Shown piece after piece: positions 38,175 through 56,289 of a DNA stretch of 64,000 nt. This DNA comes from Streptomyces griseus subsp. griseus (GTDB lineage: Bacteria; Actinomycetota; Actinomycetes; Streptomycetales; Streptomycetaceae): NCBI RefSeq assembly GCF_003610995.1, contig NZ_CP032543.1, forward strand, positions 4,464,001 to 4,528,000, written 5' to 3'. Position 1 is the stretch's first letter; every line of letters begins with the position of its first letter. The notes under the pieces were generated by a model. That model did no database searches, had not been told where the DNA came from, and saw only the letters and a program-made list of their open reading frames with translations. A program made the translations under genes and the position numbers.

Positions 38175-39247
38175 TCAGCCGACGACGGTCCAGGTGTCGG
38201 TTCCGGTGAGGAGTGCGTCGAGGTCGCCCTTGCCGTCGCGCTCCACGGCGGCGTCCACCTGGTCGGACATCAACGTGTCGTAGACGGGCCGCTCCACGCT
38301 GCGCAGCACACCGATGGGGTGTGGTGGAGGGTGTCGGTGTCGGCGAGGCGGGAGAGCGCGAAGGCCGTGGTCGGGGAGTCGGCGCGGGCGTCGTGGACGA
38401 GGACCTGCGAGCGGTTGTCGTCGGTGACGGCGACGACCTCCAGATCACCGGTGGCCTGGTTGCGGACGACACCCTTGGAACCGTCGGCCCCGAAGAGGAT
38501 CGGCTCCCCGTGCTCCAGGCGGATGACGGCTTCGGCGGCCTGTTCCTTGTCCTTGAGGACCTCGAAGGCGCCGTCGTTGAAGATGTTGCAGTTCTGGTAG
38601 ATCTCCACGAGAGCCGTGCCCGGGTGCTCGGCCGCCGCCCGCAGCACGCTGGTGAGGTGCTTGCGGTCGGAGTCGACCGTCCGCGCCACGAACGTGGCCT
38701 CCGCGCCGATGGCGAGGGAGACCGGGTTGAAAGGCGCGTCGAGGGAGCCCATCGGCGTCGACTTGGTGATCTTGCCGACCTCGGAGGTGGGGCTGTACTG
38801 GCCTTTGGTGAGCCCGTAGATCCGGTTGTTGAAGAGGAGGATCTTGAGGTTGACGTTGCGGCGCAGGGCGTGGATGAGGTGGTTGCCACCGATGGAGAGT
38901 GCGTCGCCGTCGCCGGTGACGACCCAGACCGACAGGTCGCGGCGGGAGGTGGCCAGGCCGGTGGCGATGGAGGGGGCGCGGCCGTGGATGGAGTGCATCC
39001 CGTAGGTGTTCATGTAGTACGGGAAGCGCGAGGAGCAGCCGATGCCGGAGACGAAGGTGATGTTCTCCTTGGCCAGGCCGAGTTCGGGCATGAAGCCCTG
39101 GACCGCGGCGAGGACGGCGTAGTCGCCGCAGCCGGGGCACCAGCGCACTTCCTGGTCGGATTTGAAGTCCTTCATGGACTGTTTCGCCCCGGCCTTGGGC
39201 ACCAGTTGCAGCAGTTCGTTGTGGTGCAGTTCCTGGGTGTCAGGCAT
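38175..39247 (-). CDS. korB: 2-oxoacid:ferredoxin oxidoreductase subunit beta, C-terminal frameshift
   Basis: Thiamine-diphosphate subunit of the enzyme that oxidatively decarboxylates 2-oxoglutarate (or a similar 2-oxoacid) with ferredoxin. Cluster cysteines are Cys37, Cys40 and Cys71, plus one in EIYQNCNIF. The TPP motif runs from GDGD (112-115) to LLFNN. Read as given, the protein stops after 325 residues with an unrelated end (from SVCCAAW). Adding one G to the run at 38316-38319 restores the family tail (HTPIGVLRSVERPVYDT, ending TDTWTVVG) and 357 residues with a stop at 38175. The gene overlaps korA by eight bases. Confidence 0.88.
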
Positions 39248-41204
39248 CGATGGCCTCCTGGAGAGCTGTGGCGAGCTGCTCGGCCTTGAACGGCATGCCG
39301 TTGACCTGGTTGTAGCTGTGGGCGTCCACCAGATACTTCGCCCGCAGCAGCATGGCGAGCTGTCCCAGGTTCATCTCCGGGATGACGACTTTGTCGTACC
39401 TCTTCAGGATCTCGCCGAGGTTGGCGGGGAAGGGGTTGAGGTGTCTGAGGTGGGCCTGGGCGATGGGCTGTCCGGCGGCGCGCAGGCGGCGGACGGCGGC
39501 GGTGATCGGCCCGTACGTCGATCCCCAGCCCAGCACCAGCGTGCGGGCTTCGGCGGGGTCGTCGACGACGAGGTCGGGGACGGTGATGTTGTCGACCTTG
39601 GCCTGGCGGGTGCGGACCATCAGGTCATGGTTGGCGGGGTCGTAGGAGATGTTGCCGGTGCCGTCCTGCTTCTCGATGCCGCCGATGCGGTGTTCGAGGC
39701 CGGGGGTGCCGGGGACCGCCCAGGGGCGGGCCAGGGTCTGCGGGTCGCGTTTGTAGGGCCAGAAGACCTCGGTGCCGTCGGCCAGGGTGTGGTTGGGGCC
39801 GGTGGCGAAAGGGGTGGTGAGGTCGGGCAGGCTGCTCGTCGCCGGGATACGCCAGGGTTCGGAGCCGTTGGCCAGATAGCCGTCGGAGAGCAGGAAGACC
39901 GGGGTGCGGTAGGTCAGGGCGATCCGGGCCGCCTCGATCGCGGCGTCGAAGCAGTCGGCCGGGGTCTGCGGGGCCACGATCGGCACCGGGGCCTCCCCGT
40001 TCCTGCCGTACATCGCCTGGAGCAGGTCGGCCTGCTCGGTCTTGGTCGGCAGCCCGGTGGAGGGCCCGCCGCGCTGGATGTCGATGATCAGCAACGGCAG
40101 CTCCAGAGAGACCGCGAGCCCGATCGTCTCCGACTTCAGCGCCACCCCCGGCCCCGACGTCGTGGTCACCCCCAGCGCCCCGCCGAACGCCGCCCCCAGC
40201 GCCGCCCCGATCCCGGCGATCTCGTCCTCCGCCTGGAAGGTGCGCACACCGAAGTTCTTGTGGCGGGACAGCTCGTGCAGGATGTCCGAGGCCGGGGTGA
40301 TCGGGTACGAGCCCAGATACAGCGGCAGGTCCGCCAGCTGACCGGCGGCGATCAGGCCGTAGGACAGGGCCAGGTTCCCGGAGATGTTGCGGTAGGTGCC
40401 GGTGGGGAAGGCCTGCGAGGCCGGAGCGACCTCGTAGGAGACGGCGAAGTCCTCGGTCGTCTCGCCGAAATTCCACCCGGCCCGGAACGCGGCCACGTTC
40501 GCCTCGGCGATCTGCGGCTTCTTCGCGAACTTCTGCCGCAGGAACGTCTCCGTCCCCTCGGTCGGCCGGTGGTACATCCACGACAGCAGCCCGAGCGCGA
40601 ACATGTTCTTCGATCGCTCGGCCTCCTTGCGGGAGAGCCCGAACTCCTTCAGCGCCTCGATCGTCAACGTCGTCAGCGGCACCGGATGGACGTTGTACGC
40701 CTCCAGCGACCCGTCCTCCAGCGGACTGGTGGCATACCCGACCTTCGCCATCGGCCGCTTGGTGAACTCATCGGTGTTCACAATGATCTCCGCGCCACGC
40801 GGCACATCGTCGATGTTCGCCTTCAGAGCGGCGGGATTCATCGCGACCAGAACATTCGGGGCGTCGCCGGGCGTGAGGATGTCATGATCGGCAAAGTGCA
40901 GCTGGAAGGAAGAAACCCCAGGCAGCGTGCCTGCGGGGGCCCGGATCTCGGCCGGGAAGTTCGGCAGGGTCGAGAGATCGTTCCCGAACGATGCCGTCTC
41001 CGAGGTGAACCGGTCACCCGTGAGCTGCATCCCGTCACCCGAGTCACCCGCAAAGCGGATGATCACCCGGTCCAGGCGGCGGACCTCTTTCCCGTCGCCG
41101 CCGGTCGTTCCCGTCGTACCTGACAGGGGGGCGCGCTGACCCCCGAGGACGGCGTCGTTGGCCTCATCGGCCTTCTCTGCCGCGCTACTGACCTGGCTCG
41201 TCAC
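39240..41204 (-). CDS. korA: 2-oxoacid:ferredoxin oxidoreductase subunit alpha (gamma-alpha fusion)
   Basis: 654-residue subunit combining the gamma domain (about residues 45-235; RVIIRFAGDSGDGMQLTGDR) and the alpha pyrimidine-binding/transketolase C-terminal domains (from about 260; GSYPITPASDILHEL, YRTPVFLLSDGYLANG). Works with KorB to make succinyl-CoA from 2-oxoglutarate and reduce ferredoxin, an alternative to the NAD-linked dehydrogenase. GTG 41204 has AGGGAGG eight bases upstream. Confidence 0.92.
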   Translation of the reverse strand: MTSQVSSAAEKADEANDAVLGGQRAPLSGTTGTTGGDGKEVRRLDRVIIRFAGDSGDGMQLTGDRFTSETASFGNDLSTLPNFPAEIRAPAGTLPGVSSFQLHFADHDILTPGDAPNVLVAMNPAALKANIDDVPRGAEIIVNTDEFTKRPMAKVGYATSPLEDGSLEAYNVHPVPLTTLTIEALKEFGLSRKEAERSKNMFALGLLSWMYHRPTEGTETFLRQKFAKKPQIAEANVAAFRAGWNFGETTEDFAVSYEVAPASQAFPTGTYRNISGNLALSYGLIAAGQLADLPLYLGSYPITPASDILHELSRHKNFGVRTFQAEDEIAGIGAALGAAFGGALGVTTTSGPGVALKSETIGLAVSLELPLLIIDIQRGGPSTGLPTKTEQADLLQAMYGRNGEAPVPIVAPQTPADCFDAAIEAARIALTYRTPVFLLSDGYLANGSEPWRIPATSSLPDLTTPFATGPNHTLADGTEVFWPYKRDPQTLARPWAVPGTPGLEHRIGGIEKQDGTGNISYDPANHDLMVRTRQAKVDNITVPDLVVDDPAEARTLVLGWGSTYGPITAAVRRLRAAGQPIAQAHLRHLNPFPANLGEILKRYDKVVIPEMNLGQLAMLLRAKYLVDAHSYNQVNGMPFKAEQLATALQEAIDA

Positions 41205-41333
41205 TGAACTGGACCTCCCTTGGGGCGGCGGTTCGGAACCTTCCGGCCAGCCGGCGGCTCCAGAGGCAACCCTACGTCCGTGCGGTTCGCCCTCCAGGGG
41301 CCGATCATATGGTGGACGCTGTTTTGAGACACC

Positions 41334-41362
41334 CTTTTATGCCGTTTTGACATCTTTCTCAA
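41334..41362 (-). promoter_or_regulatory. Probable korAB promoter
   Basis: On the minus strand TTGAGA (41357-41362) and TAAAAG (41334-41339) are 17 bases apart, with the korA start about 130 bases on. Two direct repeats GTTTTGA (41321-41327, 41344-41350), 23 bases apart, lie on and just after the -10. The whole stretch 41205-41543 has no gene; it also holds a short dyad CTGACA / TGTCAG near the regulator stop (41525-41539). Confidence 0.5.
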
Positions 41363-41543
41363 GCCCCCCGATCGCTGGATGGAAGCGCTCTGCTCGTAGG
41401 TCTTTCGTGCTAGGCCCTTCCGCCCAGGACTGCCCGGTGGAGGCCCGCCGGACACCCCTGAGGGAGATCCGCCGGGTGTGCGCCGGCTGCTCACCGGGCG
41501 TCCACCGCCGGATCGGACGGTTGGCTGACAGGGTGTCAGACGG

Positions 41544-42203
41544 CTAGGAGTTCAGGTAGGTGAGTACGGCGAGGACGCGCCGGTGGTCCCCGTCGCTGGG
41601 CGAGAGCCCCAGCTTCTGGAAGATGTTGCTGACGTGCTTCTCCACCGCCCCGTCGCTCACCACGAGCTGCCGGGCGATCGCCGAGTTGGTCCGGCCCTCG
41701 GCCATCAGACCCAGGACCTCCCGCTCGCGCGGAGTCAGCCCCACCAGCACGTCCTGCTTTCGGCTGCGGCCCAGCAGCTGCGCCACCACCTCCGGGTCCA
41801 GCGCCGTCCCGCCACCCGCCACCCGGACGACCGCGTCCACGAACTCGCGGACCTCGGCCACCCGGTCCTTGAGCAGATACCCCACGCCCCGGCTGCTGCC
41901 CGCCAGCAGCTCGGTGGCGTACTGCTCCTCCACGTACTGCGAGAGGACCAGCACCCCTATGCCCGGATACTCCTTCCGCAGCCGCACCGCCGCCCGTACG
42001 CCCTCGTCGGTGTGGGTCGGCGGCATCCGTACATCGGCCACCACCACATCGGGCAGCGCCCGCTCCGCCCCGAGGTCCGCCACGGTCTTCAGCAGGGCCT
42101 CGGCGTCGCCCACCCCCGCGACCACGTCATGCCCGAGGTCGGTGAGCAGACGGGTGAGCCCCTCCCGCAGCAGGACCGAATCCTCGGCGATGACTACCCG
42201 CAC
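41544..42203 (-). CDS. NarL-family response regulator
   Basis: 219 residues. Receiver with Glu7-Asp8, phosphoacceptor Asp57 (VVADVRMPP) and Lys in YLLKDR; C-terminal LuxR-type HTH (LTPREREVLGLMAEGRTNS, then GAVEKHVSNIF). GTG 42203 is chosen because GGAG lies seven bases upstream; upstream GTGs at 42224 and 42212 are alternatives. The two kinase genes upstream on the same strand are its probable partners. Confidence 0.9.
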   Translation of the reverse strand: MRVVIAEDSVLLREGLTRLLTDLGHDVVAGVGDAEALLKTVADLGAERALPDVVVADVRMPPTHTDEGVRAAVRLRKEYPGIGVLVLSQYVEEQYATELLAGSSRGVGYLLKDRVAEVREFVDAVVRVAGGGTALDPEVVAQLLGRSRKQDVLVGLTPREREVLGLMAEGRTNSAIARQLVVSDGAVEKHVSNIFQKLGLSPSDGDHRRVLAVLTYLNS

Positions 42204-42345
42204 TCTGTTCTCCACGTGCTCCACGACGCTGCGTCCCCCGCTGTCCTGAGCCCCGAGCCGAAGAGCCCCTGACCCTCTGGCTCTCCGACACTCCGGCTCT
42301 CCGAGTTGCTGTGCCCTCGGGCGCATCCGCACCCGACACCCTCAG

Positions 42346-42385
42346 CATCCCAGGCCCGGGCCTGGGATGGGGAGCCTGTGGATAA
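42346..42385. promoter_or_regulatory. 24-bp perfect palindrome beside an exact DnaA box
   Basis: CATCCCAGGCCC and its complement GGGCCTGGGATG meet with no spacer at 42346-42369. Eight bases later TGTGGATAA (42377-42385) is the complement of TTATCCACA. They lie about 145-180 bases before the response regulator start. The palindrome could be an operator, a kinase terminator or both. Confidence 0.5.
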
Positions 42386-42711: not shown

Positions 42712-44091
42712 TCAGCCTCGCCAAGGGAGCTCGGCAGTGATCGTTGTCGGGCCGCCGGCCGGGGAGTTCACCACCAGGACCCCGTCCACCGCGTCCAGCC
42801 GCTCCGTCAGCCCTGCCAGGCCGCTGCCGGACGAGGCGGAGGCGCCGCCTCGGCCGTTGTCCGTGACCTGGAGCATCAGCCGGTCGGACGTCCGCCACAC
42901 ATCGACCGTGGCCCGGGTCGCCCGCGCGTGCTTGCTGACGTTCTGCAGCAGCTCCGACACCGTGAAGTAGGCGATGCCCTCGATGGCCTGCGCGGGCCGG
43001 GCGTCCAGGTCCACCTCGACCGTGACGGGGACGGTGCAGCGGGAGGCGATGGCGGAGAGCGCGGCGTCGAGGCCGCGGTCGGTGAGAACGGCAGGGTGGA
43101 TACCCCGGGCGAGGTCGCGCAACTCCTGAAGTGCGACCTTCACCTCGCCGTGCGCCTCGTCCACCATCCGCGCGGCTGCCTCGGGGTCGTCCGTGAGCTT
43201 CTCCTTCGCCAGCCCCAGATCCATGGCCAGGGCGACGAGCCGAGCCTGCGCACCGTCGTGGAGGTCCCGCTCTATCCGGCGCAGGTCGGCGGCGGCGGTG
43301 TCCACGACCACGCCCCGGTCCGACTCCAGCTCGGTGACCCGGGCAGAGAGGGCGGACGGGCCCAGCAGACCGGACACCATCAGCCGGTCCACCGAGACCA
43401 GCCCCCGCACGATCCACGGTGAGAGCAGCACCAGCACCAGGCCCACCGCGCTCGTCGCCGCCAGCTCGGCGGGGGAGTCCAGGTAGTGCGCGTGGCTGCG
43501 GTCCCCGTACAGCTGGATGCCGTCGGCCCCGACGAAGACCGGGAAGACCCACTGCCACAGCGGGTACGTCAACGCCGCCAGGCCGTACGACCAGAACGTC
43601 ACCGACACGCAGAACGTGAACACGGCCCAGGGGAAGTGCAGCAGCGCGTAGAGAAGGTGCCGCCAGGAGACGCCGCTCTTGAGGACGGCGCCGATCCACG
43701 ACATCGGGCCGCCGCTCTTCCCCCGCACCCGCACGGGCTCCGCCACGTCCAGCTTCAGCAGCCCGCGCGCCCGGGCCCGCTCCATCACCCCGAACCCCCG
43801 GCAGGCGGCCAGGCCCACGGCCAGAAGCGGAATCCCGATGAAGGTGACGAGCAGACCGGCGCTGACCGACGTCATGGCGATCGCGAAGACGAATATCACC
43901 GTGCTCAACGGCAGGCTCAGCAGGACATAGAGGAGCTCGCGCCAGCTGCGGGCCTCCAGCGGCGCGCGCAGCGCCGCCGGGAGGAAGTGCTCCGCCGGGG
44001 CCTGTCCCTGGGGGCCCGCGCCCAGACCTGTGTGGCCGCGCCCGCCCGATCCCTTGTGGTCCCGGGTGTCCGGTCCGTATGCCGTGGCCAT
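42712..44091 (-). CDS. Sensor histidine kinase 1 (NarL-type)
   Basis: 459-residue kinase. Several membrane segments in the first half (for example LLSLPLSTVIFVFAIAMT and the 'sensor' domain common in Streptomyces), then the HisKA_3 phosphorylation site ERDLHDGAQARLVALAM, N-box ELLQNVSKHARA and G-box around GSGLAGLTERL. ATG 44091 is the most likely start. It shares a nearly identical C-terminal half with kinase 2, upstream. Confidence 0.9.
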   Translation of the reverse strand: MATAYGPDTRDHKGSGGRGHTGLGAGPQGQAPAEHFLPAALRAPLEARSWRELLYVLLSLPLSTVIFVFAIAMTSVSAGLLVTFIGIPLLAVGLAACRGFGVMERARARGLLKLDVAEPVRVRGKSGGPMSWIGAVLKSGVSWRHLLYALLHFPWAVFTFCVSVTFWSYGLAALTYPLWQWVFPVFVGADGIQLYGDRSHAHYLDSPAELAATSAVGLVLVLLSPWIVRGLVSVDRLMVSGLLGPSALSARVTELESDRGVVVDTAAADLRRIERDLHDGAQARLVALAMDLGLAKEKLTDDPEAAARMVDEAHGEVKVALQELRDLARGIHPAVLTDRGLDAALSAIASRCTVPVTVEVDLDARPAQAIEGIAYFTVSELLQNVSKHARATRATVDVWRTSDRLMLQVTDNGRGGASASSGSGLAGLTERLDAVDGVLVVNSPAGGPTTITAELPWRG

Positions 44092-44348
44092 GAGTGCCCG
44101 TCCGTTCCGTCTCTTCTGTCGATCGGCGAGGTGTCCCGCGTCCCTGCTCCGCGCCCGTGCTCGTCCGCCGCGGGCCTGCTGTTCCACCGTGCTGTTCAAA
44201 CCGTGCTGCTCGAACTGTGCTGCTCGAAATGTCTACTTCCAGGGTGCTGGGCTGTCCTCTCCGGCACCATGTGGCCGGTCTCCGTATCCGTACGGGGGTT
44301 TTCCCCACCCTCGTACGTCCTCGGCCCCCCGGCACGTCCTCCGCGTGC

Positions 44349-45542
44349 TCAGGAGGCCCGGCTGTCCGCCGGGACCCGGTCGCGCCAGGGCAGCTCCGCG
44401 GTGACGGACGTCGGCCCACCCACCGGGGAGTCCAGGACGAACAGCCCGTCCACCGCACCCAGCCGCTCGGCCAGCCCCGCCATCCCCGTACCGCCGTCCA
44501 TCCGCGCCCCGCCCGAACCGTCGTCCGTGACCTGGATCAGCAACCGGTCCGCCGCACGCCGCACGTCGACCGCGGCCGACCGGGCACCGCTGTGCTTGCT
44601 GACGTTCTGCAGGAGCTCCGACACGGTGAAGTAGGCGATGCCCTCGATCGCCTCCGCCGGACGCCCCGGCAGATCCACCGACACCTTGACGGGGACGGTG
44701 CAGCGGGAGGCGATGGCGGAGAGTGCGGCGTCGAGGCCGCGGTCGGTCAGAACAGCGGGATGGATACCCCGGGCGAGGTCGCGCAACTCCTGAAGTGCGA
44801 CCTTCACCTCCCCGTGGGCCTCCTCCACCATCCGTGCGGCCGCTTCCGGGTCGTCCGTCAGCTTCTCCTTCGCCAGCCCCAACCCCATGGCGAGGGCGAC
44901 GAGCCGGGCCTGCGCACCGTCGTGCAGGTCCCGTTCGATACGGCGGAGGTCGGCGGCGGCGGTGTCCACGACCACGCCCCGGTCCGACTCCAGCTCCGCG
45001 ATCCGCCGCTCCAGCTCGTCCGAGGGCGACAACAGCCCCCGCACCATGGCCCGGTCGGCCGTCGTCAGCCCCCGGGCGATGAACGGGAGCACCGGCCACA
45101 GGACGACCAGGCTCACCAGCGTCACCGCGAACGTCAGGACCCCCCACGGCAGCCGGATGAAGCCGTACAGCAGCGAGCGCCACCCCACCGGGTCCTTCAG
45201 CCCCGACCAGAGCCAGGTGAAGACCCCGTCGTCCCGGCGGCCGCGCGGCAACGGGCTCGGCTCCTCGATCCGCAACCCGAGCAACGACCGCGCCCGGCCC
45301 CGCTCCACCCGGCCCAGCCACCGCGCCCCCCGCACCCCGCCGACCAGCACCGGCAGCCCGACCACGGTGACCGAGAGGCCCACACCGACGGCGATCACGA
45401 GCAGGGCGTAGACGAAACCGGCGACGGCCAGCGGCAGATTGACCAGCAGGTGCGCGACCTCCCGCCAGGCCGACCGGTCGAGGGCGAGGCGGGCGGGCGG
45501 CAGAGGCCGGTCGGGGTCCGGTACGGAAGGGCTCATGGTCAT
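44349..45542 (-). CDS. Sensor histidine kinase 2 (NarL-type)
   Basis: 397-residue paralogue of the downstream kinase: membrane segments (VAHLLVNLPLAVAGFVYALLV and others), ERDLHDGAQARLVALAMGLG phosphorylation site, ELLQNVSKHSGA N-box and GTGMAGLAERL G-box. ATG 45542 has an AGG about eight bases upstream; ATG 45536 is also possible. Between the kinases, 44092-44348 shows nothing recognisable. Divergent from the second nuo operon. Confidence 0.9.
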   Translation of the reverse strand: MTMSPSVPDPDRPLPPARLALDRSAWREVAHLLVNLPLAVAGFVYALLVIAVGVGLSVTVVGLPVLVGGVRGARWLGRVERGRARSLLGLRIEEPSPLPRGRRDDGVFTWLWSGLKDPVGWRSLLYGFIRLPWGVLTFAVTLVSLVVLWPVLPFIARGLTTADRAMVRGLLSPSDELERRIAELESDRGVVVDTAAADLRRIERDLHDGAQARLVALAMGLGLAKEKLTDDPEAAARMVEEAHGEVKVALQELRDLARGIHPAVLTDRGLDAALSAIASRCTVPVKVSVDLPGRPAEAIEGIAYFTVSELLQNVSKHSGARSAAVDVRRAADRLLIQVTDDGSGGARMDGGTGMAGLAERLGAVDGLFVLDSPVGGPTSVTAELPWRDRVPADSRAS

Positions 45543-45634
45543 GGCACCAGCCTGCCGGGCCGTGTCCGCGCTCGCCATGGGGCTCGTAGGTGGCGTGAAG
45601 TAGGGATAACCCCACCTGTGTGCGACGCGGCTGC

Positions 45635-45662
45635 TTACGGTGCGTTTATCAGGGCCTAGACT
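45635..45662 (+). promoter_or_regulatory. Possible promoter of the second nuo operon
   Basis: TTACGG (45635-45640) and TAGACT (45657-45662) with a 16-base spacer; the -10 fits the Streptomyces TAGRRT consensus loosely. It lies 65 bases before nuoA in the divergent region shared with kinase 2. Only a weak -35, so treat as tentative. Confidence 0.35.
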
Positions 45663-45726
45663 CCCGTGCGTACAGCAGGGGCCTCGGATACGTACGGGGC
45701 TACAACCGGATGACGAGGAACAAGGG

Positions 45727-46176
45727 GTGGACGTGAGGGACGTGGCGTACGTGCCGGAAGCGCCGCACGTGACGTACGTGCCGGTCCACCACCAGACCAC
45801 CCTCGCCTCCGACTACTTCCAGAGCTACTCGGTGGTCGGCCTGCTCGCCCTGGTCGGCGTCCTGTTCGTCGCCGTCGCGTTCGGCGCGGGACGACTCCTG
45901 CGGCCCGTGGTCCCGACGCCGGAGAAGCTCCTGACGTACGAGTGCGGCGTCGACCCGGTCGGTGAGGGCTGGGCCCACACCCAGGTCCGCTACTACGTCT
46001 ACGCGTTCCTTTATGTCATCTTCGCCGTCGACTCCATCTTCCTGTTCCCGTGGGCCACGGTCTTCGCGGCACCCGGATACGGCGCCACCACGCTGGTGGA
46101 AATGTTCATCTTCCTCGGCTTCCTCGCCGTGGGACTGCTCTACGCATGGAAGAAGGGCGTCCTCGCATGGGCCTGA
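45727..46176 (+). CDS. nuoA: NADH-quinone oxidoreductase subunit A (second set)
   Basis: 149-residue three-helix membrane subunit of complex I; the [10 protein letters not shown] loop (conserved Cys-Gly) and [22 protein letters not shown] are diagnostic. GTG 45727 has GAGG eight bases upstream; GTG 45733 is a near alternative. First gene of a ten-gene operon that lacks nuoD, E, F and G. Its N-terminus is slightly longer than in most NuoA. Confidence 0.92.
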
Positions 46177-46847
46177 CGAGCCGGCCGACCCCCGCAGGAC
46201 AACAGCCCGAACCGCAGGCGGATGCCGCACCGGAGCCGGTGCTCCTTCCGGAGCCCCAGCGCCTCGGCCTCCTCTCCCGGCTCGCGCCCGAACCGATGAA
46301 GGTCGTCCTCAACTGGGGCCGCCGCTACAGCCTCTGGGTCTTCAACTTCGGACTCGCCTGCTGCGCCATCGAGTTCATCGCCGCCTCCATGGCGCGCCAC
46401 GACTTCATCCGGCTCGGCGTGATCCCCTTCGCGCCCGGCCCTCGCCAGGCGGACCTGATGATCGTCTCCGGCACGGTGACGGACAAGATGGCCCCGGCGG
46501 TGAAGCGCCTCTACGAGCAGATGCCCGAACCGAAGTACGTCATCTCCTTCGGCGCCTGCTCCAACTGCGGCGGCCCCTACTGGGACTCGTACTCCGTCAC
46601 CAAGGGCGTCGACCAGATCATCCCCGTCGATGTGTACGTACCCGGCTGCCCGCCCCGGCCCGAGGCGCTGCTCCAGGGCATTCTCAAGCTCCAGGAGAAG
46701 ATCGCGCGCGAGTCCCTGGCCGACCGGTACGCGCCCGGCCCCTCCGGAGGCACCCCCTCCACGGCGGCGCTGCGCAGCGGACTGGTCACCGCACCGACGC
46801 CACCGGCGAAGGCTCCGGGGACGGAACCGGGGGAGGAGCAGCGGTGA
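46167..46847 (+). CDS. nuoB: NADH-quinone oxidoreductase subunit B (second set)
   Basis: 226 residues, holding cluster N2, the last Fe-S centre before quinone. All four ligands are visible: CC in ACCAIEF, Cys in [10 protein letters not shown] and Cys in [10 protein letters not shown]2 retention implies real electron transfer. ATG 46167 overlaps nuoA by ten bases; a C-terminal 45-residue Pro/Thr-rich tail is extra. Confidence 0.93.
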
Positions 46848-48415
46848 GCGAGCGTCGACACGAGGCCCACCACCCGTACGACCGGCTGCCGGACGCCGTC
46901 ACGGAGCTGTTCGGGGAGGGCGCGACGGCGGAGTCGGCCTACGACCTGCTCACCGTCGACATCCCCGCCACGGAGTGGATCACCGCGCTGCGGACCGCCC
47001 GCGACGGACTCGGCTGCACCTACTTCGACTGGCTCAGCGCCGTGGACGAGCCGGGCACCGGCTTCCGCGTCTGCGCGCACGTCGCCGCTCTCGGCGACGG
47101 CACGGTCCGCCGGCTCATGCTGCGCACCACCGTCCCGCACGACGCGGCCACCCTGCCCAGTGCGATCGACGTCTACGCGGGCGCGGCCTGGCACGAGCGC
47201 GAGACGCACGAGATGTTCGGGGTCGCCTTCGAGGACCACCCCGGCCTCGCCCCGCTCCTGCTGCCGGAAGGGTTCGAGGGCCATCCGCTCCGCAAGGACT
47301 TCGTCCTGGCCGCCCGGGTCGCCAAGGCCTGGCCCGGCGCGAAGGAGCCCGGCGAGTCCGAACACGGCGGCCCCAAGCGCCGCACCATGCTGCCCCCCGG
47401 CGTTCCGGACCCCAACGAATGGGGCCCCCTCAAGGGCCAGCTGCCCCCCGCCGCACCCCGCCCGGGCCGTGCGTCCCGCCCGGCGGCGACGGCCGACCGC
47501 CCGCCCCGCCGCACCCGCTCCGCGAGCGACGGCTCAGCCGCGCAACGCCCCCGAACGGGCCCGCCCGAGCCCTCGGGCCCGGGGTCTGCGGACTCCGGGG
47601 CTCCCACGTCGGGGGCTCGTGGGGCCGGGGTGCCCGCGCCTGAGGCGTCCGCGCCTCCCGCTCCAGGCGGCGCCGTGGCCGGGGCTCCCGCGCCCGCATC
47701 GTCGGATGCCGCCTCGCCGGATGCCGTACAGCCTCCGTCCGCGCCCGCGCCTCCCGGAGGCGCGTCGTCCGGCGACGTACCGCCCGAACAGTCCCCGGCC
47801 GCGCGCCCGCGCCGCTCCCGTTCCGCGTCGGACGGCTCGGCGAGCCAGCAGCAGGGCCCGGAAGCAGCCACGCCGCGCCCGCCGCGCCGCTCCCGCTCGG
47901 CCTCTCAGGGCTCGGCGAGCCAGCGCGCCCGCTCCACGGACGCCCCCTGGCACGACGCCCAACCGGCGTTCGATGAGCCGGACACCGCACCGGACGCCGC
48001 ATCGGGCCGCCCCGATGCGTCCGAGTCCCGGCGGTCTTCGGGGACGGGCGACGCCCGCCCCGAGCCCCGGCGGTCTGCGGGGTCAGACAACGCCCGCTCC
48101 CAGCCTCAGCTTCCTTCCGAGAGCGACGGCCCCGAGCCCCCCTCCCATTCCCCGAAGCATTCGGAGGGCGGAGACCCCGATTCCCAGCCTCTCCGGCGTT
48201 TGAGGAGCGGGGGTCCGGAGGCAGAGCCCCCGGTTCGGGAAGGGGCGGGTAGGGGAGAGGCCCCGCGCAGCGGCCCCACCTCCGCCCCCACCGAGCCCAG
48301 GACCGCCCCTGACCCCGACCGCCCGCCGACGGACGAGCCCACCCCCACCAAGCCCGAACCTCCGTCCCAGCCCAAGCCCGACCCCGACCACCCCGCCGGA
48401 GGCGATGCCGAGTGA
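46844..48415 (+). CDS. nuoC: NADH-quinone oxidoreductase subunit C (second set) with long disordered tail
   Basis: 523 residues, against about 200 for a usual NuoC. The first 200 contain the family body and its signature ([20 protein letters not shown], then GHPLRKDF). From about residue 205 the protein is Pro/Ser/Ala/Arg-rich, with three copies of an [17 protein letters not shown] repeat near residues 222, 323 and 347. Near the end it crosses a sequence resembling a dispersed Streptomyces repeat (48183-48286). GTG 46844 overlaps nuoB by four bases. NuoD, its normal partner, is absent. Confidence 0.88.
48183..48286. repeat. Streptomyces-type interspersed repeat inside the nuoC tail
   Basis: The stretch containing CTCCGGCGTTTGAGGAGC, a GGGGG...GCCCCC hairpin and GGGAAGGGGCGGGTAGGGGA resembles, from memory, an element found many times between genes in Streptomyces. 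Here it is translated as part of the NuoC tail. Recognition is by eye. Confidence 0.55.
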
Positions 48416-49380
48416 ACGACGTGTCCGACGTCGCCCTCCGCCTGGCCGTCATCTTCGTCGTGTTCCTGGTCGCCCCCCTCCTCGTGGGCCAGACCGAACA
48501 CAAGGTCATGGCCCACATGCAGGGCCGCCTCGGCCCCATGTACGCGGGTGGCTTCCACGGCTGGGCCCAGCTCGTCGCGGACGGCGTGAAGTTCGCGCAG
48601 AAGGAGGACGTGGTCCCGGCCGCCGCCGACCGCCGCGTTTTCCAGCTCGCCCCCGCCGTCGCCCTCCTCCCGTACCTCCTCGTCCTCGTGGCCATCCCCA
48701 TCGGCCCCGGCGACGGCGCGGTGGGCCAGGTCATCGACGCGGGCATCTTCTTCGTGCTCGCCGTCATGGGCATCGGCGTCCTCGGCTCGCTCATGGCCGG
48801 CTGGGCCTCGGCCAACAAGTTCTCCCTGCTCGGCGGTCTCCGTACCGCCGCCCAGCTCCTCTCCTACGAACTCCCGATGCTCCTGGCCGCCGCCTCCGTC
48901 GCCATGGCGGCCGGCACGGTCTCGCTCACCGGCATCCTCGACGCCTTCGAGTGGTGGTGGCTGCCCTGGCAGATCGTCGGAGCCCTGGTCTTCTTCGTCG
49001 CCGGTCTCGCCGAACTCCAGCGCCCTCCCTTCGACATGCCGGTCGCCGACTCCGAGATCATCTTCGGCGCCTACACCGAGTACACGGGGCTGCGCTTCGC
49101 CCTGTTCCTCCTCGCCGAGTACGCGGGCATCGTCATCCTCTGCGCCCTGACCACCGTCCTCTTCCTCGGCGGCTGGCACGGCCCGTTCGGCGCCGACGGA
49201 CTCGGCTGGCTCTGGACCCTCCTCAAGACCGCCCTCCTCGCGTTCGTCGTCATCTGGCTGCGCGTCAGCTACCCGCGTCTGCGTGAGGACCAGTTGCAGA
49301 GACTCGCCTGGACCACCCTCGTCCCCCTCGCCCTCGCGCAGATCGCGCTCACCGGCATCGTGAAGGTGGCGATCAGCTGA
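48412..49380 (+). CDS. nuoH: NADH-quinone oxidoreductase subunit H (second set)
   Basis: 322-residue membrane subunit with eight helices. The quinone-site signatures are kept: [14 protein letters not shown] and [21 protein letters not shown]. Shorter than the main-operon NuoH because it lacks the C-terminal hydrophilic tail. GTG 48412, GGAGG nine bases upstream, overlaps nuoC by four bases and nuoI by one. Confidence 0.94.
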
Positions 49381-49961
49381 TGCCCCCGATCCCCGGATCA
49401 GGCCTGGCCAAGGGCCTCGCCGTCACCCTGCGCACGATGACGAAGAAGACCGTCACCGCGCAGTACCCCGACACCCAGCCCGAACTCCCGCCCCGCTCCC
49501 GTGGTGTCATCGGGCTGTTCGAGGAGAACTGCACGGTCTGCATGCTCTGCGCCCGTGAGTGCCCCGACTGGTGCATCTACATCGACTCCCACAAGGAGAC
49601 GGTGCCGCCCGCCGCGCCCGGCGGACGCGAGCGCAGCCGTAACGTCCTCGACCGCTTCGCCATCGACTTCTCCCTCTGCATGTACTGCGGTATCTGCATC
49701 GAGGTCTGCCCCTTCGACGCCCTCTTCTGGTCACCCGAGTTCGAGTACGCGGAGACGGACATCCACGAGCTCACCCATGAGCGGGACAAGCTCCGCGAGT
49801 GGATGTGGACCGTGCCGGAGCCGCCCGCCCTCGACCCCGGGGCGGAGGAGCCGAAGGAGATCGCCGCCGCCCGCAAGACGGCCGACAAACTCGCCGCCCA
49901 GGCACCCCGGAAGAACCCCGATCCCGACCCTGCCTCCGACGCGAAGGGAGGAACCCCGTGA
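49380..49961 (+). CDS. nuoI: NADH-quinone oxidoreductase subunit I (second set)
   Basis: 193 residues with both 4Fe-4S motifs: [15 protein letters not shown] (note one extra cysteine) and [16 protein letters not shown]. In a complex without NuoE, F and G this ferredoxin-like subunit would be the natural docking and entry point for electrons from soluble ferredoxin. ATG 49380 shares one base with the nuoH stop (TGATG). Confidence 0.93.
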
Positions 49962-50629
49962 CGCCGCACACCGCACCCACCGTGCTCGCCGCAGCCGCCG
50001 CCGACCACCCCGGCTTCCTCTCCCCGACCGGCGTCGAGATCGCCTTCGTCCTCGTCGGCCTCGCCACCCTCGGCGCCGCCGTCATCACCGTCACCACCCG
50101 GCAACTGGTGCACGCCGCCCTCTGGCTCGTCGTGGCGCTCGGCGGACTGGCCGTCGAATACCTCCTGCTCACCGCGGAGTTCATCGCCTGGGTGCAGGTA
50201 CTGATCTACGTCGGTTCCATCGTCGTCCTCCTCCTCTTCGGCCTGATGCTCACCCGGGCCCCCATCGGCCGCTCCCCGGAAGCCGATTCGGGCAACCGGT
50301 GGGTCGCCCTGGGGGTGGCCCTCGCCTCGGCGGCCGCGCTCGTCTGGGTCGTCGTGGACGCCTTCCGTACCACCTGGATCGACCTCGAAGGACCGGCCCA
50401 GGGCTCCACCGCCGTCACCGGAGCCTTCCTCTTCCGGAACTGGGTCCTCCCCTTCGAGGCGCTCTCCGTCCTGCTGCTCGCCGCCCTCGTCGGCGCCATC
50501 GTGCTGTCCCGCAAGCACGACAAGGACACGGCGATCCGGTCGGCCTCGGTCTCTTCCACCCGACAGGACAAGGACCGGAGCGAGGCTCGGGGCAAGGGCC
50601 AAGGCCGCGGAACGGAGGAGCGGAGCTGA
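49958..50629 (+). CDS. nuoJ: NADH-quinone oxidoreductase subunit J (second set)
   Basis: 223-residue membrane subunit, five hydrophobic segments, including the family stretch [20 protein letters not shown] with the pi-bulge region. A basic C-terminal tail ([13 protein letters not shown] type) replaces the longer tail of the first copy. GTG 49958 behind GGAGG; overlaps nuoI by four bases. Confidence 0.92.
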
Positions 50630-51084
50630 TGCACCTCGCCTATCCCGCCGTACTCGCCGCCCTCCTCTTCTGCACCGGCCTCTACGGCGTCCTCGCCCGC
50701 CGCAACGCGATCCTGGTCCTGATGTCGGTCGAGCTGATGCTCAACGCCGTCAACCTCAACCTCGTCGCCTTCGACGTCTGGCTCCGCGACACCCTCCACT
50801 CCGGCCAGGCCCTCACCCTCTTCACCATCGCCATCGCCGCCGCCGAGATCGGTATCGGCCTCGCGATCGTGCTGGCCGTCCACCGCAACCGCGGCTCCTC
50901 CGACATCGACCGCCTCCGCGACACCGCCGAGACCGACGACGCCGAGATCCTCGACGCCGAGGCCGCCGCCGCTGACACCGCCGACGCCGCAGCCGACGGC
51001 CACGCCGAAAAGGCAGCGCAAGCCGCGAGCGCGGGGAACACCACGAACGCAGGGACCACCAAGAACGCAGAGGCCACCTCGTGA
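50629..51084 (+). CDS. nuoK: NADH-quinone oxidoreductase subunit K (second set)
   Basis: 151 residues: the usual 100-residue three-helix body with membrane glutamates in [15 protein letters not shown] and [12 protein letters not shown], plus a 50-residue acidic then Ala/Thr/Asn tail that the first copy lacks. ATG 50629 with a GGAG ribosome site, sharing a base with the nuoJ stop. Confidence 0.92.
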
Positions 51085-53081
51085 CCACGACGACCCTCGC
51101 CGCCCTCGTCCCGCTCCTGCCCTTCCTCGGCGCCGTCGCCGGACTCGCGCTCGGCCGCACCGCCCCCGGCTTCGTCCGCCCCCTGGCGATCCTGCCGACG
51201 CTCACCGCGGCCGTCCTCGCCGTGATCGTCGCCGTCCGCCAAGGCGGCGGCCGTGCCATCGACGCGGCCACCCAGCTCACCCCCACCGGGTCGGTCCCCA
51301 TCGACCTGGCCCTGCACCTGGACGGCTTCGCGGTCCTGGTCGCCGTCCTCGTCGGGCTCGTCGCCACCTGCGTACAGCTCTACTCCACGGCCTACCTCCG
51401 CGACGACGCCCGCTACCCCTCCTACGCGGCCCTGGTCTCCCTCTTCACCTCCGCGATGCTGCTCGTCGTCTACTCCGGCGACCTGATGGTGCTCCTGGTC
51501 GGCTGGGAGATCATGGGCATCTGCTCGTACTTCCTGGTCGGCCACTACTGGGAGACGCCCGAAGCGCGTGCCGCCTCCCTCAAGGCCTTCCTCGTCACCA
51601 AGCTCGGCGATGTCCCCTTCCTGATCGGCCTGTTCGCCCTGGCCGCCGACACCGGCAGCTTCCGGATCACCAAGATCCTGGCGGCCGTCACCAACGGCGG
51701 CCTGGACCACCCCACCCTCATCGCCCTGCTGCTCCTGGCAGGCGTCGCCGGAAAGTCCGCCCAGTTCCCCCTGCACACCTGGCTGCCCGACGCGATGGCC
51801 GGCCCCACCCCCGTCTCCGCGCTCATCCACGCCGCGACGATGGTCGCCGCCGGGATCTACTTCGTGGCCCGGCTGCTCCCCGTCTTCGCCGCCTCCGGCG
51901 CGGCCCTGGTCGTCCTCGCCGTGATGGCGGCCGTGACGATGGTCGGCTCCGGGCTCGCCGCCCTCGCCCAGGACGACATCAAACGCGTCCTCGCCTACTC
52001 GACGATCGGCCAGCTCGGCTACATGTCCGGTGCCCTGGCCGTCGCCGACCGGGGTGCCGCCGTCTTCCACCTGATCTCGCACGGTGCGTTCAAAGCGGTC
52101 CTCTTCCTCGCGGCCGGCGTCGTCATCCACGCCGCCGGCACCAACTCACTCGCCGCCATGTCCCGCATGGGCGGCCTCGCGCGCCGGATTCCCGACGCCT
52201 ACTGGACGATGACCGTCGCCCTCCTCGCGCTCGCCGCCATCCCGCCGTTCGCCGGCTTCTTCTCCAAGGAAGCCGTCCTCGTCGCCGCCGAGCACACCGC
52301 CATGGGGGACCGGACCGCCGCCCCCGCCGCCGCGGGCTGGACGATCCTCGTCGCCGGGCTGCTGGCCGCCGTCCTCACCGCCGCCTACGCCACCCGCCTC
52401 TGGCTCCTCGCCTTCAAGGGGCGCGGCGCCGAAGTACCCGACCACGGCCGCCAGCCGCTCGCCATGACCTCCGTCCTGTGGATCCTGGCCGTCCCCACCA
52501 TCGCCTTCGGGCTGACCGCGGGCGTGCTGGGCGACTGGTTCGACGGCCACGCCCTCACCCCGTCCCTCACCACGGCCGTCCTCTCCACCGGCGTCGGCCT
52601 CGTCGGCGGGCTCGTCACCTATGGCGCCTGGCGCCACACCACGGCGCTCGCCGCCCGCACCCCCATCGGGGCCGTCGCCGCCCACCCCGGCGCCGAACCC
52701 GCCCTCGTCGAAGCCGAGGCCATGACGTCGCACACCGCTGCCTACGGCACCATCGCGGACGCCGTCGACCCGGCCGACCCCGGACGCCTCCTCCTGGGCC
52801 CGCTCCACCGCCACGCGGTCACCGGCTTCCACCTCGACGCCCTGTACACGGCGGTGTTCGTCCGGCCCGTCCAGCAGGCCGCCCGCCTCGTGCGCTTCCT
52901 GGACCGCTCGGTCGTCGACACCTATGTCAACGGATCGGGCGCCGCCACCCGGCTCCTCGGCACCGCCGTACGCCGTGCCCAGACCGGCAACGTGCAGACC
53001 TATCTCAGCGTCCTGCTCGCCGGTTCCCTCGTCCTGGCGATCGCCGCCGTCGTCTTCGCCAACGTCAACGCGGGGTCGTGA
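51081..53081 (+). CDS. nuoL: NADH-quinone oxidoreductase subunit L (second set)
   Basis: 666 residues, antiporter-like, about 15 helices. Channel residues lie in [39 protein letters not shown] and [14 protein letters not shown], so proton pumping should be possible. GTG 51081 with GAGG seven bases upstream, overlapping nuoK by four bases. Confidence 0.94.
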
Positions 53082-54730
53082 CCGTGATCGATATCAGCCC
53101 GTCCGTGATGCAGTTCCTTCTCGCGTTCATCGTCGTCGCCCCGCTGCTCGGCGCCGTCGCGGCCCTGCTCCCCGCCCCGCCCGGACTCAGGGGCAGGAAC
53201 CCCGACCAGGCCGTGCTGCGCCACGGCGTGACCGTGACCGGCGCCGTCCTCCTCGCCGCGATCGTCCTAGCCGTCGGCTTCGACCACGACCACCCCGCCA
53301 CGATGCAGGCGACCACCGACATCAGCTGGATCCCGGCACTCGACGTCCGCATCCACCTCGGCATCGACGGCATCTCGCTCCCCCTCCTGCTCCTGACCGC
53401 GCTGCTGACCTTCCTCTGCGCGCTGTACAGCTACTTCAAGCTGCCCGCGGGCCCCTCGGCGAAGGCGTTCACCGCCCTCGTCCTCGTCCTGGAATCCGGC
53501 ACCCTCGCCACCTTCGCCGTCCTCGACCTGCTGCTCTTCTTCCTCGCCTTCGAGATGGTCCTCATCCCGATGTACTTCCTCATCGCCCGCTGGGGCGGTG
53601 ACCAGCGGCAGGCCGCCGCCTGGAAGTTCATCCTCTACACGCTGCTCGGCTCGGTCGTCATGCTGCTGGGCCTGCTCCTCATCGGGCTGAGGAGCGGCAC
53701 CTTCGACATGGTGGCACTCGCCACTGACAACGGCCGTGGCCTCACCACATCCGTGCAGGTCATCGCCGTTCTCGCGATCGGCCTCGGACTCGCCGTGAAG
53801 ACCCCGATGTGGCCCCTGCACAGCTGGCTCCCCGACGCCCACACCGCCGCCCCGACCGTCGGCTCCGTGCTCCTGGCGGGCGTCCTGCTGAAGATGGGAA
53901 CGTACGGGTTCGTCCGGATCCTGCTCCCCATCGCGCCCGACGGGATGCGTACCTTCGCGCCGTACCTCGCCGCCTTCGCCGTCGTCGGCATCGTCTACGG
54001 ATCGCTCGCCTGCCTGGCCCTGGCCCGTAACGGTGCCAAGGGCGACCTCAAGCGGCTCATCGCGTACTCCTCCGTCGGCCACATGGGCTTCGTGCTGCTC
54101 GGCATCGCCACCATGACGCCCACCGGAGTCAACGGCGCGCTCTTCGCCAACATCGCCCACGGCCTCATCACCGGCCTGTTGTTCTTCCTGGTCGGCGCGA
54201 TCAAGGACCGCTACGGCACCGCCGATCTGGACACCCTCGCCGGCGCCACCGGAGCCGCCCTCTACGGCCGGGCCCCCCGCCTCGGCGCCCTGCTCGCCTT
54301 CGCCGCCGTCGCCTCGCTCGGACTGCCCGGGCTCGCCGGTTTCTGGGGCGAGATGCTCACCCTGTTCGGCGCCTACAGCCCCGCCGAGGGCCTCAGCCGC
54401 CCGGCGTTCCGCACCTTCATGGCCATCGGCGCGTCCGGCACCCTGCTCACCGCCGCGTACATGCTCATCGTGGTCCGCCGCGTCTGCATGGGCGAGCACA
54501 CGCCCCACTCCCGGCTCTCGCCCGACGACCGCACCCCGGCCCCGGCGCCTGCCCCCGGACGGCCCACGGCTGCCGGAAGCCCCCCGCAGCTCGCCGACAT
54601 CCAGCGCTACGAAGCCGCCGCCTGGACCCCGCTCGCCGCCCTCACCGTTCTCGCCGGACTCTGGCCCGCCGTCCTCCTCGGCCTCACCGACCCGGCCGTG
54701 CAGAAGCTCCTCGCAGGAGGCAAGTCGTGA
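53078..54730 (+). CDS. nuoM: NADH-quinone oxidoreductase subunit M (second set)
   Basis: 550-residue antiporter-like subunit with the glutamate of LAFEMVLIPMYFLIARWGG and the lysine of LAVKTPMWPLHSWLPDAH. GTG 53078 overlaps nuoL by four bases; a second GTG at 53084 is possible. The ribosome site is weak, so translation probably depends on coupling. Confidence 0.93.
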   Translation: MTVIDISPSVMQFLLAFIVVAPLLGAVAALLPAPPGLRGRNPDQAVLRHGVTVTGAVLLAAIVLAVGFDHDHPATMQATTDISWIPALDVRIHLGIDGISLPLLLLTALLTFLCALYSYFKLPAGPSAKAFTALVLVLESGTLATFAVLDLLLFFLAFEMVLIPMYFLIARWGGDQRQAAAWKFILYTLLGSVVMLLGLLLIGLRSGTFDMVALATDNGRGLTTSVQVIAVLAIGLGLAVKTPMWPLHSWLPDAHTAAPTVGSVLLAGVLLKMGTYGFVRILLPIAPDGMRTFAPYLAAFAVVGIVYGSLACLALARNGAKGDLKRLIAYSSVGHMGFVLLGIATMTPTGVNGALFANIAHGLITGLLFFLVGAIKDRYGTADLDTLAGATGAALYGRAPRLGALLAFAAVASLGLPGLAGFWGEMLTLFGAYSPAEGLSRPAFRTFMAIGASGTLLTAAYMLIVVRRVCMGEHTPHSRLSPDDRTPAPAPAPGRPTAAGSPPQLADIQRYEAAAWTPLAALTVLAGLWPAVLLGLTDPAVQKLLAGGKS

Positions 54731-56289
54731 CCGCGGACCTCAGCACCGCCGCCTTCACCACGGCGGCCGACGCCGCCCCCCGCGTCGTCCAGACCGTCGA
54801 CTGGCTCGCCATCGCACCCCCCACCCTCACCGCGCTGGCCGCCCTGCTCGTCCTCGTCGCCGATCTCTTCCTCCCCGGGCACCGCAAGAAGGTCCTCGGC
54901 TACGGAACCCTCACCGCGCTCGCCGCCGCACTCGCCCTCCTCATCCCGCTGCGCGCCGGAGACCGCGCCACCTTCTGCGTCACGACCGGCGCCCAGGCGT
55001 GCAGCTATACCGCCGACCACTTCGCCCTGGTGATCCAGGCCCTCGTGCTCGGCGGGGCGTTCCTCACCGCGCTGCTCTCCCTCGACGACACGCGGAAGCT
55101 CCCGGCGGGCGAATACTGGTTCCTGCTCCTCGCCTCCGCCGCGGGCGCCGCCCTCCTGCCCGCCTCCCGCGACCTCGCCACCCTCGTCGTCGCCCTGGAG
55201 GTCGCCTCGCTGCCGGCCTTCGCCCTCGTGGGCATCAAGCGCGGCGACCGGCGCTCCTCCGAAGCCGCGCTCAAGTTCTTCCTCTCCTCCGTCGTCGCCA
55301 CCGCCGTGATGCTCCTGGGCGTCAGCTTCGTGTACGCGACCACGGGGACCCTCCACCTCACGGAGATCGCCGCCCATCTGGACGACGTACCTCCGGCCCT
55401 GGACACCCTCGCCAAGACCGGCGTCGTCCTCACCCTCGTCGGCTTCGCCTTCAAGACCGCCGCGGCCCCCTTCCACTTCTGGGTCCCCGACACCTATGTG
55501 GGCGCGCCCCTGCCGATCGCCGCCTACCTCTCCGTCGTCGGCAAGACCGTCGGTTTCTCGGGCCTCATCCTCGTCACCGTTGTCGCGTTCCCTTCTTATG
55601 CCGATGTCTGGGGACCCGCCGTCGCCGTCCTGGCCGCCCTGACCATGACCGTCGGCAACGTCGCCGCGATCCGCCAGAGGGCCGACCGCGCGCGCAGCGC
55701 CGTACGGCTCCTCGCCTGGTCCTCCGTCGCCCAGGCCGGCTATCTGCTCGTCCCGATCGCCGCCGCCGCGTACTCCAGCGACGAACAGATCGGCTCCACC
55801 GTCGCGTACGCCCTCATGTACGCCGTCGTGAACCTGGGCGCCTTCGCCGTCGCGGCCCTCGTCGCCCGTACGAAGCCCGGCAACCGCGTCGCCGACTACC
55901 GGGGCCTGTACGCCACCCGGCCGCTCGCCGCCCTCGCGCTCGGCTTCTTCCTGCTCTGCCTGGCCGGACTGCCGCCCGGCATCATCGGGCTCTTCGCGAA
56001 GGTCACCGTCTTCTCGGCGGCCGACGACGCCGGGCTCGGCTGGCTCGCCGTCGTCATGGCCGTCAACGTGGTGATCGCTCTCTACTACTACCTTCAGTGG
56101 ACCGCGATCCTCTTCAGGGGCCCGGACACCGCCGAAGCGACCGCCGGAACACCGACCGCCGAGCCGACGCACCGATTCCGGGCACCTGCCCCGCTCACCA
56201 CGGCCATCGCCCTCACCGCCGCCGCCGGAATCCTCCTCTCCGGGGCCCCGCAGCTCATCCTGAGGTTCGCCGCCGTCGCCCTCTTCTGA
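54727..56289 (+). CDS. nuoN: NADH-quinone oxidoreductase subunit N (second set)
   Basis: 520 residues, third antiporter-like subunit and end of the second operon. Family segments include VVALEVASLPAFALVGIKRG, FAFKTAAAPFHFWVPDTYVG and VRLLAWSSVAQAGYLLVP. GTG 54727 with GGAGG six bases upstream, overlapping nuoM by four bases. No clear terminator follows. Confidence 0.94.
   Translation: MTADLSTAAFTTAADAAPRVVQTVDWLAIAPPTLTALAALLVLVADLFLPGHRKKVLGYGTLTALAAALALLIPLRAGDRATFCVTTGAQACSYTADHFALVIQALVLGGAFLTALLSLDDTRKLPAGEYWFLLLASAAGAALLPASRDLATLVVALEVASLPAFALVGIKRGDRRSSEAALKFFLSSVVATAVMLLGVSFVYATTGTLHLTEIAAHLDDVPPALDTLAKTGVVLTLVGFAFKTAAAPFHFWVPDTYVGAPLPIAAYLSVVGKTVGFSGLILVTVVAFPSYADVWGPAVAVLAALTMTVGNVAAIRQRADRARSAVRLLAWSSVAQAGYLLVPIAAAAYSSDEQIGSTVAYALMYAVVNLGAFAVAALVARTKPGNRVADYRGLYATRPLAALALGFFLLCLAGLPPGIIGLFAKVTVFSAADDAGLGWLAVVMAVNVVIALYYYLQWTAILFRGPDTAEATAGTPTAEPTHRFRAPAPLTTAIALTAAAGILLSGAPQLILRFAAVALF

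Follow-up and report, generated by a model that had tools for sequence, protein, structure and literature searches.

A probable split, NADH-less complex I beside korAB in Streptomyces griseus, and actinomycete relatives without membrane-arm genes

In Desulfitobacterium, NADH-less complexes of the complex I type have been proposed to be fed by pyruvate:ferredoxin oxidoreductase (PFOR) or by ferredoxin, and the feeder of such complexes is treated as an open question (PMC11238625). A second complex I gene cluster of Streptomyces, nuo2 (SCO4599-4608), was noted to miss the N module (PMC9239103, PMC3765725, PMC8388888), and conserved antisense RNAs as well as a nuoD2 gene lying apart from the cluster have already been published for it (PMC3765725, PMC8388888). 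The mitochondrial Q-module comprises the B, C, D and I subunits, and human NDUFAF7 methylates an arginine of the D subunit (PMC3829151, PMC8042128). A 2-oxoacid:ferredoxin oxidoreductase (KOR), KorAB, is known from the aerobic actinomycete Mycobacterium tuberculosis (PMC2773412). The two kinases and one regulator AbrC1/C2/C3 are known for a role in antibiotic production and differentiation, not in respiration (PMC3098853, PMC4428217). Here we describe a locus of Streptomyces griseus subsp. griseus that resembles each of these systems in part. The 64,000-nucleotide stretch analysed (hereafter the window; positions 4464001-4528000 of a 7.24-Mb single-contig genome) carries korAB, a two-component system and what is apparently the same nuo2 cluster, the closest nuo2 clusters being those of named Streptomyces records.

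Among the 11 subunits A-D and H-N of complex I, ten are encoded by nuo2 in the window and NuoD2 is encoded elsewhere in the genome; together they very probably constitute an 11-subunit, NADH-less complex I. The gene order of nuo2 is the canonical complex I order minus D, E, F and G, and there is no room for these between nuoC2 and nuoH2, because the NuoC2 frame runs to 48415 and that of NuoH2 already begins at 48412. With NuoE, NuoF and NuoG absent from the operon, nuo2 is not a canonical 14-subunit NADH:quinone oxidoreductase. Once NuoD2 is added, the subunits are those of the Desulfitobacterium complex, from which nuo2 differs in being split over two loci, in having a MidA-family methyltransferase gene beside nuoD2, in carrying Trp at the quinone-site Tyr of NuoD2 and in having derivatives without membrane-arm genes. 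The host of nuo2 is aerobic in lifestyle, unlike Desulfitobacterium. As a whole, the locus is best explained by a split complex that would be fed by KOR, reduce menaquinone and pump protons, a reading for which we hold belief and doubt about evenly balanced.

An earlier note on this DNA had seen KOR, a two-component system and a complex I module without NADH input in one block. Every piece of it was confirmed by Pfam, but NuoD is missing from the module as well, and a plain NADH-less complex I encoded by the cluster alone was given up as a reading once this was found; moreover, korAB and the two-component genes are oriented opposite to nuo2 (+ strand, from ~45640 to 56289), so the block is not a single operon. 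Its genes, followed by one neighbour, are as follows (window positions):

38270..39247, - strand: korB, thiamine-pyrophosphate subunit of 2-oxoacid:ferredoxin oxidoreductase (PF02775), with a frame change near the 3' end
39240..41204, - strand: korA, alpha subunit of 2-oxoacid:ferredoxin oxidoreductase (PF01855, PF01558, PF17147; TIGR03710 at 657 bits, above the cut-off of 482.75)
41544..42332, - strand: LuxR-type response regulator, abrC3-like by position (PF00072 and PF00196)
42712..44199, - strand: sensor histidine kinase, abrC2-like by position (PF13796, PF07730, PF02518)
44349..45800 (listed open frame), - strand: sensor histidine kinase, abrC1-like by position (PF13796, PF07730); its true start probably lies inside the listed frame, since nuoA2 overlaps
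45640..46176 (open frame; homology from ~45871), + strand: nuoA2 (PF00507)
46167..46847, + strand: nuoB2, the subunit with cluster N2 (PF01058), with Thr at the switch position in the residue alignment
46844..48415, + strand: nuoC2 (PF00329), C domain to ~47458 and tail at 47459-48412
48412..49380, + strand: nuoH2 (PF00146)
49380..49961, + strand: nuoI2 (PF00037/PF12838), 4Fe-4S motifs from ~49530 and ~49677
49958..50629, + strand: nuoJ2 (PF00499)
50629..51084, + strand: nuoK2 (PF00420)
51081..53081, + strand: nuoL2 (PF00361, PF00662)
53075..54730, + strand: nuoM2 (PF00361)
54727..56289, + strand: nuoN2 (PF00361)
57130..57990 (start approximate; open frame from 56548), + strand: htpX-like M48 peptidase (PF01435), a neighbour only

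A genome search with PF00346 recovered NuoD1 and one other protein, NuoD2 (380 amino acids, contig 3234588-3235730), which is encoded 1.27 Mb from nuoA2 and directly downstream of a methyltransferase gene of the MidA/NDUFAF7 family (PF02636, 54.8 bits against a cut-off of 23.3; best solved-structure match by sequence at E 0.07). NuoD2 has the HRG arginine that corresponds to the NDUFAF7 target, and by this analogy MidA is predicted to dimethylate it. Co-occurrence was scored in a class sample of 148 genomes, of which 11 are Streptomyces-like (the same genus as the window) and some are incomplete, and linkage also in a second, overlapping sample of 61 relatives, the presence of NuoH2 and KorB being called at E 1e-70. 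NuoI2 was found in 70 of the 148 genomes and NuoD2 in 67, with both in 65; NuoD2 accompanied NuoH2 in 39 of 41 genomes, and the two exceptions are 72% and 80% complete. PF02636 was found in 64 genomes, 59 of them with NuoD2; MidA and NuoD2 shared a contig in 52 of these 59 and were less than 10 kb apart in 51 of the 52. The genes flanking the pair in the compared loci look like folate and pantothenate genes.

The order of the intact operon and the position of MidA after nuoN were read from 80 named records. Those that bear the name Acidimicrobiia, Ilumatobacter, Candidatus Actinomarina or the like have, if they are long enough, an intact A-B-C-D-H-I-J-K-L-M-N operon, and in 24 of the 80 nuoN is followed by a MidA-type gene. 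nuo2 and midA thus probably derive from a single ancestral operon that ended in midA and was split in Actinomycetes, with nuoD2 and midA relocated together. The residues around cluster N2 point the same way. In Thermus, the D subunit has Thr in place of the Arg next to N2, and this is paired with Arg for Thr in the B subunit (PMC8042128). Among genomes or records with a readable position, unreadable positions and weak matches being left out, D2 has Arg in 114/114 and B2 has Thr in 106/106, while D1 has Thr and B1 has Arg in 17/17 each. As co-occurrence, residue pairing and the intact Acidimicrobiia-type operons agree, NuoD2 was assigned to nuo2.

Identity between nuo2 proteins and their nuo1 counterparts, compared for nine of them, is 30-54%, and nuo2 is therefore no recent duplicate of the ordinary nuo1 operon, which begins just upstream of the window, ends at 11471 and lies ~34 kb from nuo2. 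Eight fetched relatives repeat the order A-B-C-H-I-J-K-L-M-N over as much of the cluster as their stretches cover, and NuoH2 is conserved where present (61-100% identity among full-length matches). In NuoI2 of the window, both CxxCxxCxxxCP motifs with the eight cluster cysteines were seen in the alignment, which bears out the earlier claim that it keeps the ligands of two 4Fe-4S clusters, and an N-terminal stretch like that of NuoI1 is present. In the NuoI2 rows shown, the first cluster motif is followed by a further conserved cysteine, the ninth (ECPDWC), which NuoI1 of the window lacks. NuoC2 ends in a Pro/Ser/Arg-rich tail of ~320 residues; beyond the HERE motif, its frame extends for 190-439 residues in named Streptomyces records and for ~45-135 in most of the remaining loci, L184, L194 and L212 being among the exceptions. 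A second PF01512 protein at contig 2158314 scored below the NCBIfam NuoF cut-offs; genome-wide searches for NuoE and NuoG were not made. It is a stand-alone NuoF-like protein (L229) with a flavin mononucleotide (FMN) domain, SLBB and extra 4Fe-4S domains, possibly another site of electron entry.

The quinone-site His of NuoD2 is kept in the window and in all but one of the NuoD2 loci compared. The second residue by which a quinone site of NuoD is recognised, Tyr, is replaced by Trp, and quinone reductase activity is for this reason not claimed as established. A further quinone-site residue varies in the compact forms described below; it is Gln in many intact Acidimicrobiia-type operons as well, and its drift is therefore no mark of membrane loss alone. 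For the proton path of NuoL2, NuoM2 and NuoN2, nine Lys/Glu positions were probed: eight match and the ninth Lys stands three residues further, so that the window genome may plausibly encode a pump.

NuoH2 was absent at E 1e-70 from 28 of the 67 NuoD2 genomes. At first sight this spoke against a partnership of NuoD2 with nuo2; followed further, it led to a second NuoB and to compact nuoB2-nuoC2-nuoI2 loci. The second NuoB is present in 27 of the 28 genomes (G147, 77% complete, has no NuoB match), and 25 of the 27 fetched loci carry nuoB2, nuoC2 and nuoI2 without adjacent nuo2 A, H or J-N genes (G080 being a partial exception), with nuoD2 separate; L101 and L113, truncated at contig ends, were excluded from this count. 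KorAB lies within ~5 kb in 15 of the 25. The next gene called after the compact operon is mostly htpX, a DUF520 gene or corA, the last two named from one representative each, and in five genomes of one family (L111, L112, L119, L120, L125; one representative tested) AtuA-type and CorA-type genes flank the operon instead of korAB. Compact-locus NuoI2 keeps the eight cluster cysteines and the ninth conserved one. The N-terminal stretch or helix seen in full clusters and in NuoI1 is absent from NuoI2 in 24 of the 25 (G080 is the exception), the true starts being uncertain, and this absence makes it less likely that the compact core docks onto the membrane arm of nuo1.

A membrane arm hidden elsewhere was sought through NuoH, genome-wide in 24 genomes, 22 of them compact (NuoL, NuoM and NuoN were not searched in this way): 22 genomes have a single NuoH match, G110 (78% complete) has none, and G080 has, besides NuoH1, two fragments of NuoH2 and another match that is weak. 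In the other three compact genomes (G133, G166, G187), NuoH was tested only at the E 1e-70 threshold. In the G080 locus (L118, G080:C1 446000-462000), nuoB2, nuoC2 and nuoI2 are accompanied by an A2-like gene and a fragment of H2, as if the membrane arm had been lost recently. The compact form was not recognised among the 80 named records, unless two Glycomyces records qualify. In these two (L162 and L213), just NuoI2 and NuoJ2 were recognised in ~16 kb, the remainder being missing or too diverged.

In NuoD2 and NuoB2 trees rooted on the nuo1 paralogues, the compact forms fall inside the full ones. The starred branches of the NuoD2 tree force at least two changes to the compact form, numbers beyond two being unsure; in the NuoB2 tree, whose branches are long, 12 of the 41 inner branches are starred, and these force one change only. 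Well-supported branches thus require two or more separate losses of the membrane arm in the NuoD2 tree, and not in the NuoB2 tree. The ratio of nonsynonymous to synonymous substitutions (dN/dS) for D2, B2, C2 and I2 is 0.08-0.44 in three compact-form pairs and 0.09-0.35 in two full-cluster pairs, so that purifying selection seems to act on the compact core even where the pump is missing. Since NuoB, C, D and I are kept in several actinomycete lineages that have lost the membrane-arm genes, the electron step into the core appears more constrained than pumping.

KorA has 6n2n as its best solved-structure match. KorB scores 243.9 bits with TIGR02177, below the cut-off of 261.9, its end being frame-changed, and lies above the PF02775 cut-off. 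At the 3' end of korB (~38175-38330) the window record changes frame, 38175 being the end of the korB-homologous stretch in the other frame, and the compared relatives stay in one frame; the change may be a sequencing error or a real mutation. In the class sample, KorB is present in 116 of the 148 genomes. KorB and NuoH2 occur together in 37 class-sample genomes, on the same contig in 23, and in 22 of these within 15 kb (exception G145); in the 61-relative sample they occur together in 50, on the same contig in 36, and in 34 of these within 15 kb (all but G011 and G038). In 14 further genomes of each sample they are on different contigs. The conservation of the linkage, which the earlier note had wished to see examined, thus holds in most of the genomes that allow a reading, the two samples overlapping. 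Moreover, korA and nuoA2 or nuoB2 are divergent neighbours ~30-115 bases apart by open-frame coordinates in L048, L050, L103, L109, L110, L113 and L123. One three-mismatch match to a Rex-type operator consensus was found upstream of korA with 0.19 expected by chance; it was not used.

In the mechanism proposed here, KorAB would oxidise a 2-oxoacid, probably 2-oxoglutarate, the substrate being named from the family. Either by way of a ferredoxin or straight from the enzyme, its electrons would reach the pair of 4Fe-4S clusters in NuoI2, which would be exposed in the absence of NuoE, NuoF and NuoG, and pass from there to cluster N2 in NuoB2, beside the NuoD2 Arg predicted as the target of MidA. 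They would end on menaquinone at the site of NuoB2, NuoD2 and NuoH2, with protons pumped by NuoL2, NuoM2 and NuoN2. The sequences themselves show the gene set, its split, the residue pairing, the linkage to kor in most readable genomes and the intact cluster ligands; donor, acceptor, methylation and pumping are what we infer, and the route from KOR or ferredoxin to quinone, which the earlier note had put forward, seems to us about as credible as doubtful.

Several findings weigh against this reading. Trp stands at the quinone-site Tyr in 114/114 NuoD2, Acidimicrobiia-type records included. Neither ferredoxin nor another donor for nuo2 was identified. Membrane-arm genes are missing from the cluster in many lineages, and pumping therefore cannot be the sole role. 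The co-occurrence figures ignore shared ancestry; five MidA genomes have no NuoD2 match and eight NuoD2 genomes have no MidA match, and L164, L169, L211 and L215 are among the records that extend beyond nuoN without a MidA match. As to KorAB, genus g3 has kor and nuo2 apart (G038 by position, six more genomes by different contigs), as have G011 and G145, and in G038 and G041 of this genus kor is close to nuo1 and distant from nuo2. KorB is less than 30 kb from nuo1 in 18 of 21 same-contig genomes without NuoI2 or NuoD2 (among the matches listed), and korAB occurs in 54 of 76 genomes with neither. Six core genomes without NuoH2 and four with it have no KorB match, some of them incomplete and G066 having a korA fragment; in G115, G166, G177 and G187, which possess the B-C-D-I core, KorB gave no match at E 1e-70 and the locus fetched contains no kor gene.

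Judged by these gene positions, kor is an old resident of the nuo1 region. Because it lies near nuo1 even where the nuo2 core is absent, its adjacency to nuo2 is suggestive, not proof, and KorAB might be a mere neighbour belonging to the actinomycete nuo1 neighbourhood, with another protein as the nuo2 donor. The g3 genomes, the coreless genomes and the four kor-less core genomes all fit this alternative. It is hard to square with the closely spaced divergent korA-nuoA2 or korA-nuoB2 pairs of some non-Streptomyces genera, and with a kor neighbourhood kept in 15 of 25 loci that have no membrane-arm genes; we consider it unlikely, though a serious contender.

Another explanation is that the B-C-D-I core no longer reduces quinone in any lineage and acts as an electron carrier, or as a reductase of some other acceptor, and that in Streptomyces the membrane arm is a partly idle remnant. 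The Trp found in every NuoD2 read, the variable further quinone-site residue of the compact forms, and the core retained in loci without membrane genes, under purifying selection in the three pairs tested, would all suit such an enzyme. The conserved NuoH2, the pumping residues kept in the window and the quinone-site His kept in all but one locus argue against it, as does the Gln shared with intact operons, and it seems rather improbable. A further proposal deserves tentative consideration, somewhat short of being probable: in many actinomycetes, NuoB2-C2-D2-I2 may be a soluble complex I derivative without its former membrane arm, equipped with a MidA/NDUFAF7-type methyltransferase of its own, that is the electron partner of KorAB and has an acceptor other than membrane quinone, and the Streptomyces form may be the same core on a pump.

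Isoform swapping, in which nuo2 products would enter the NADH-driven complex I (NuoD1, NuoE-G) to give hybrids, as suggested in print for S. coelicolor and by cyanobacterial analogy (PMC9239103, PMC3765725, PMC8388888), would fit the ~34 kb between nuo1 and nuo2 and the lack of an own E-G, and stayed under consideration up to the discovery of the distant NuoD2 and of the residue switch; it is now very doubtful, since NuoD2 exists and accompanies NuoI2 in 65 genomes, the matching residues assign D2 to nuo2, D1 with B2 would leave no Arg near N2 and D2 with B1 two, nine nuo2 proteins are only 30-54% identical to their counterparts, and NuoC and NuoL, reported absent from S. coelicolor nuo2 (PMC9239103), are both in the window.

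The two-component genes looked to the earlier note like a possible control of kor and nuo2. With two kinases and one regulator divergent from nuo2, they look like abrC1/C2/C3 by arrangement and position, SCO4596-4598 being the abrC system beside nuo2 (PMC3098853, PMC9739823). They stand between kor and nuo2 in Streptomyces loci (the window, L053 and several named records) and are absent there in L046, L048 and L050, where korA and nuoA2 are divergent neighbours. The main AbrC3 targets reported in S. coelicolor are antibiotic regulators (PMC4428217); abrC and nuo2 both go up in a gbn mutant (PMC9239103). A dedicated control is thus not borne out, and abrC, absent between kor and nuo2 in several relatives, is a neighbour and no core part. 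On the other side of nuo2, an mscL-like frame from ~56409 precedes the htpX-like gene in the window, and htpX is a frequent downstream neighbour of both nuo2 and the compact operon.

Compared with the mitochondrial Q-module, the B-C-D-I core of some actinomycete genomes appears to be retained as an end product, with its methylation predicted. No mention of midA, the D2/B2 residue pairing, a korAB partnership or membrane-free relatives was found in the accessible parts of PMC9239103, PMC3765725 and PMC8388888, and no published description of the midA-nuoD2 pair or of a membrane-free NuoBCDI was found in a literature search largely without subscription papers.

For the question of what feeds an NADH-less complex I, the conserved neighbourhood points to KOR as a candidate donor in genetically tractable bacteria. 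The lineages without membrane-arm genes are a natural experiment that separates electron transfer from proton pumping, and midA-nuoD2, set against an HTG-type NuoD1 without the target arginine in the same cell, would provide an internal control for the effect of NDUFAF7-type methylation.

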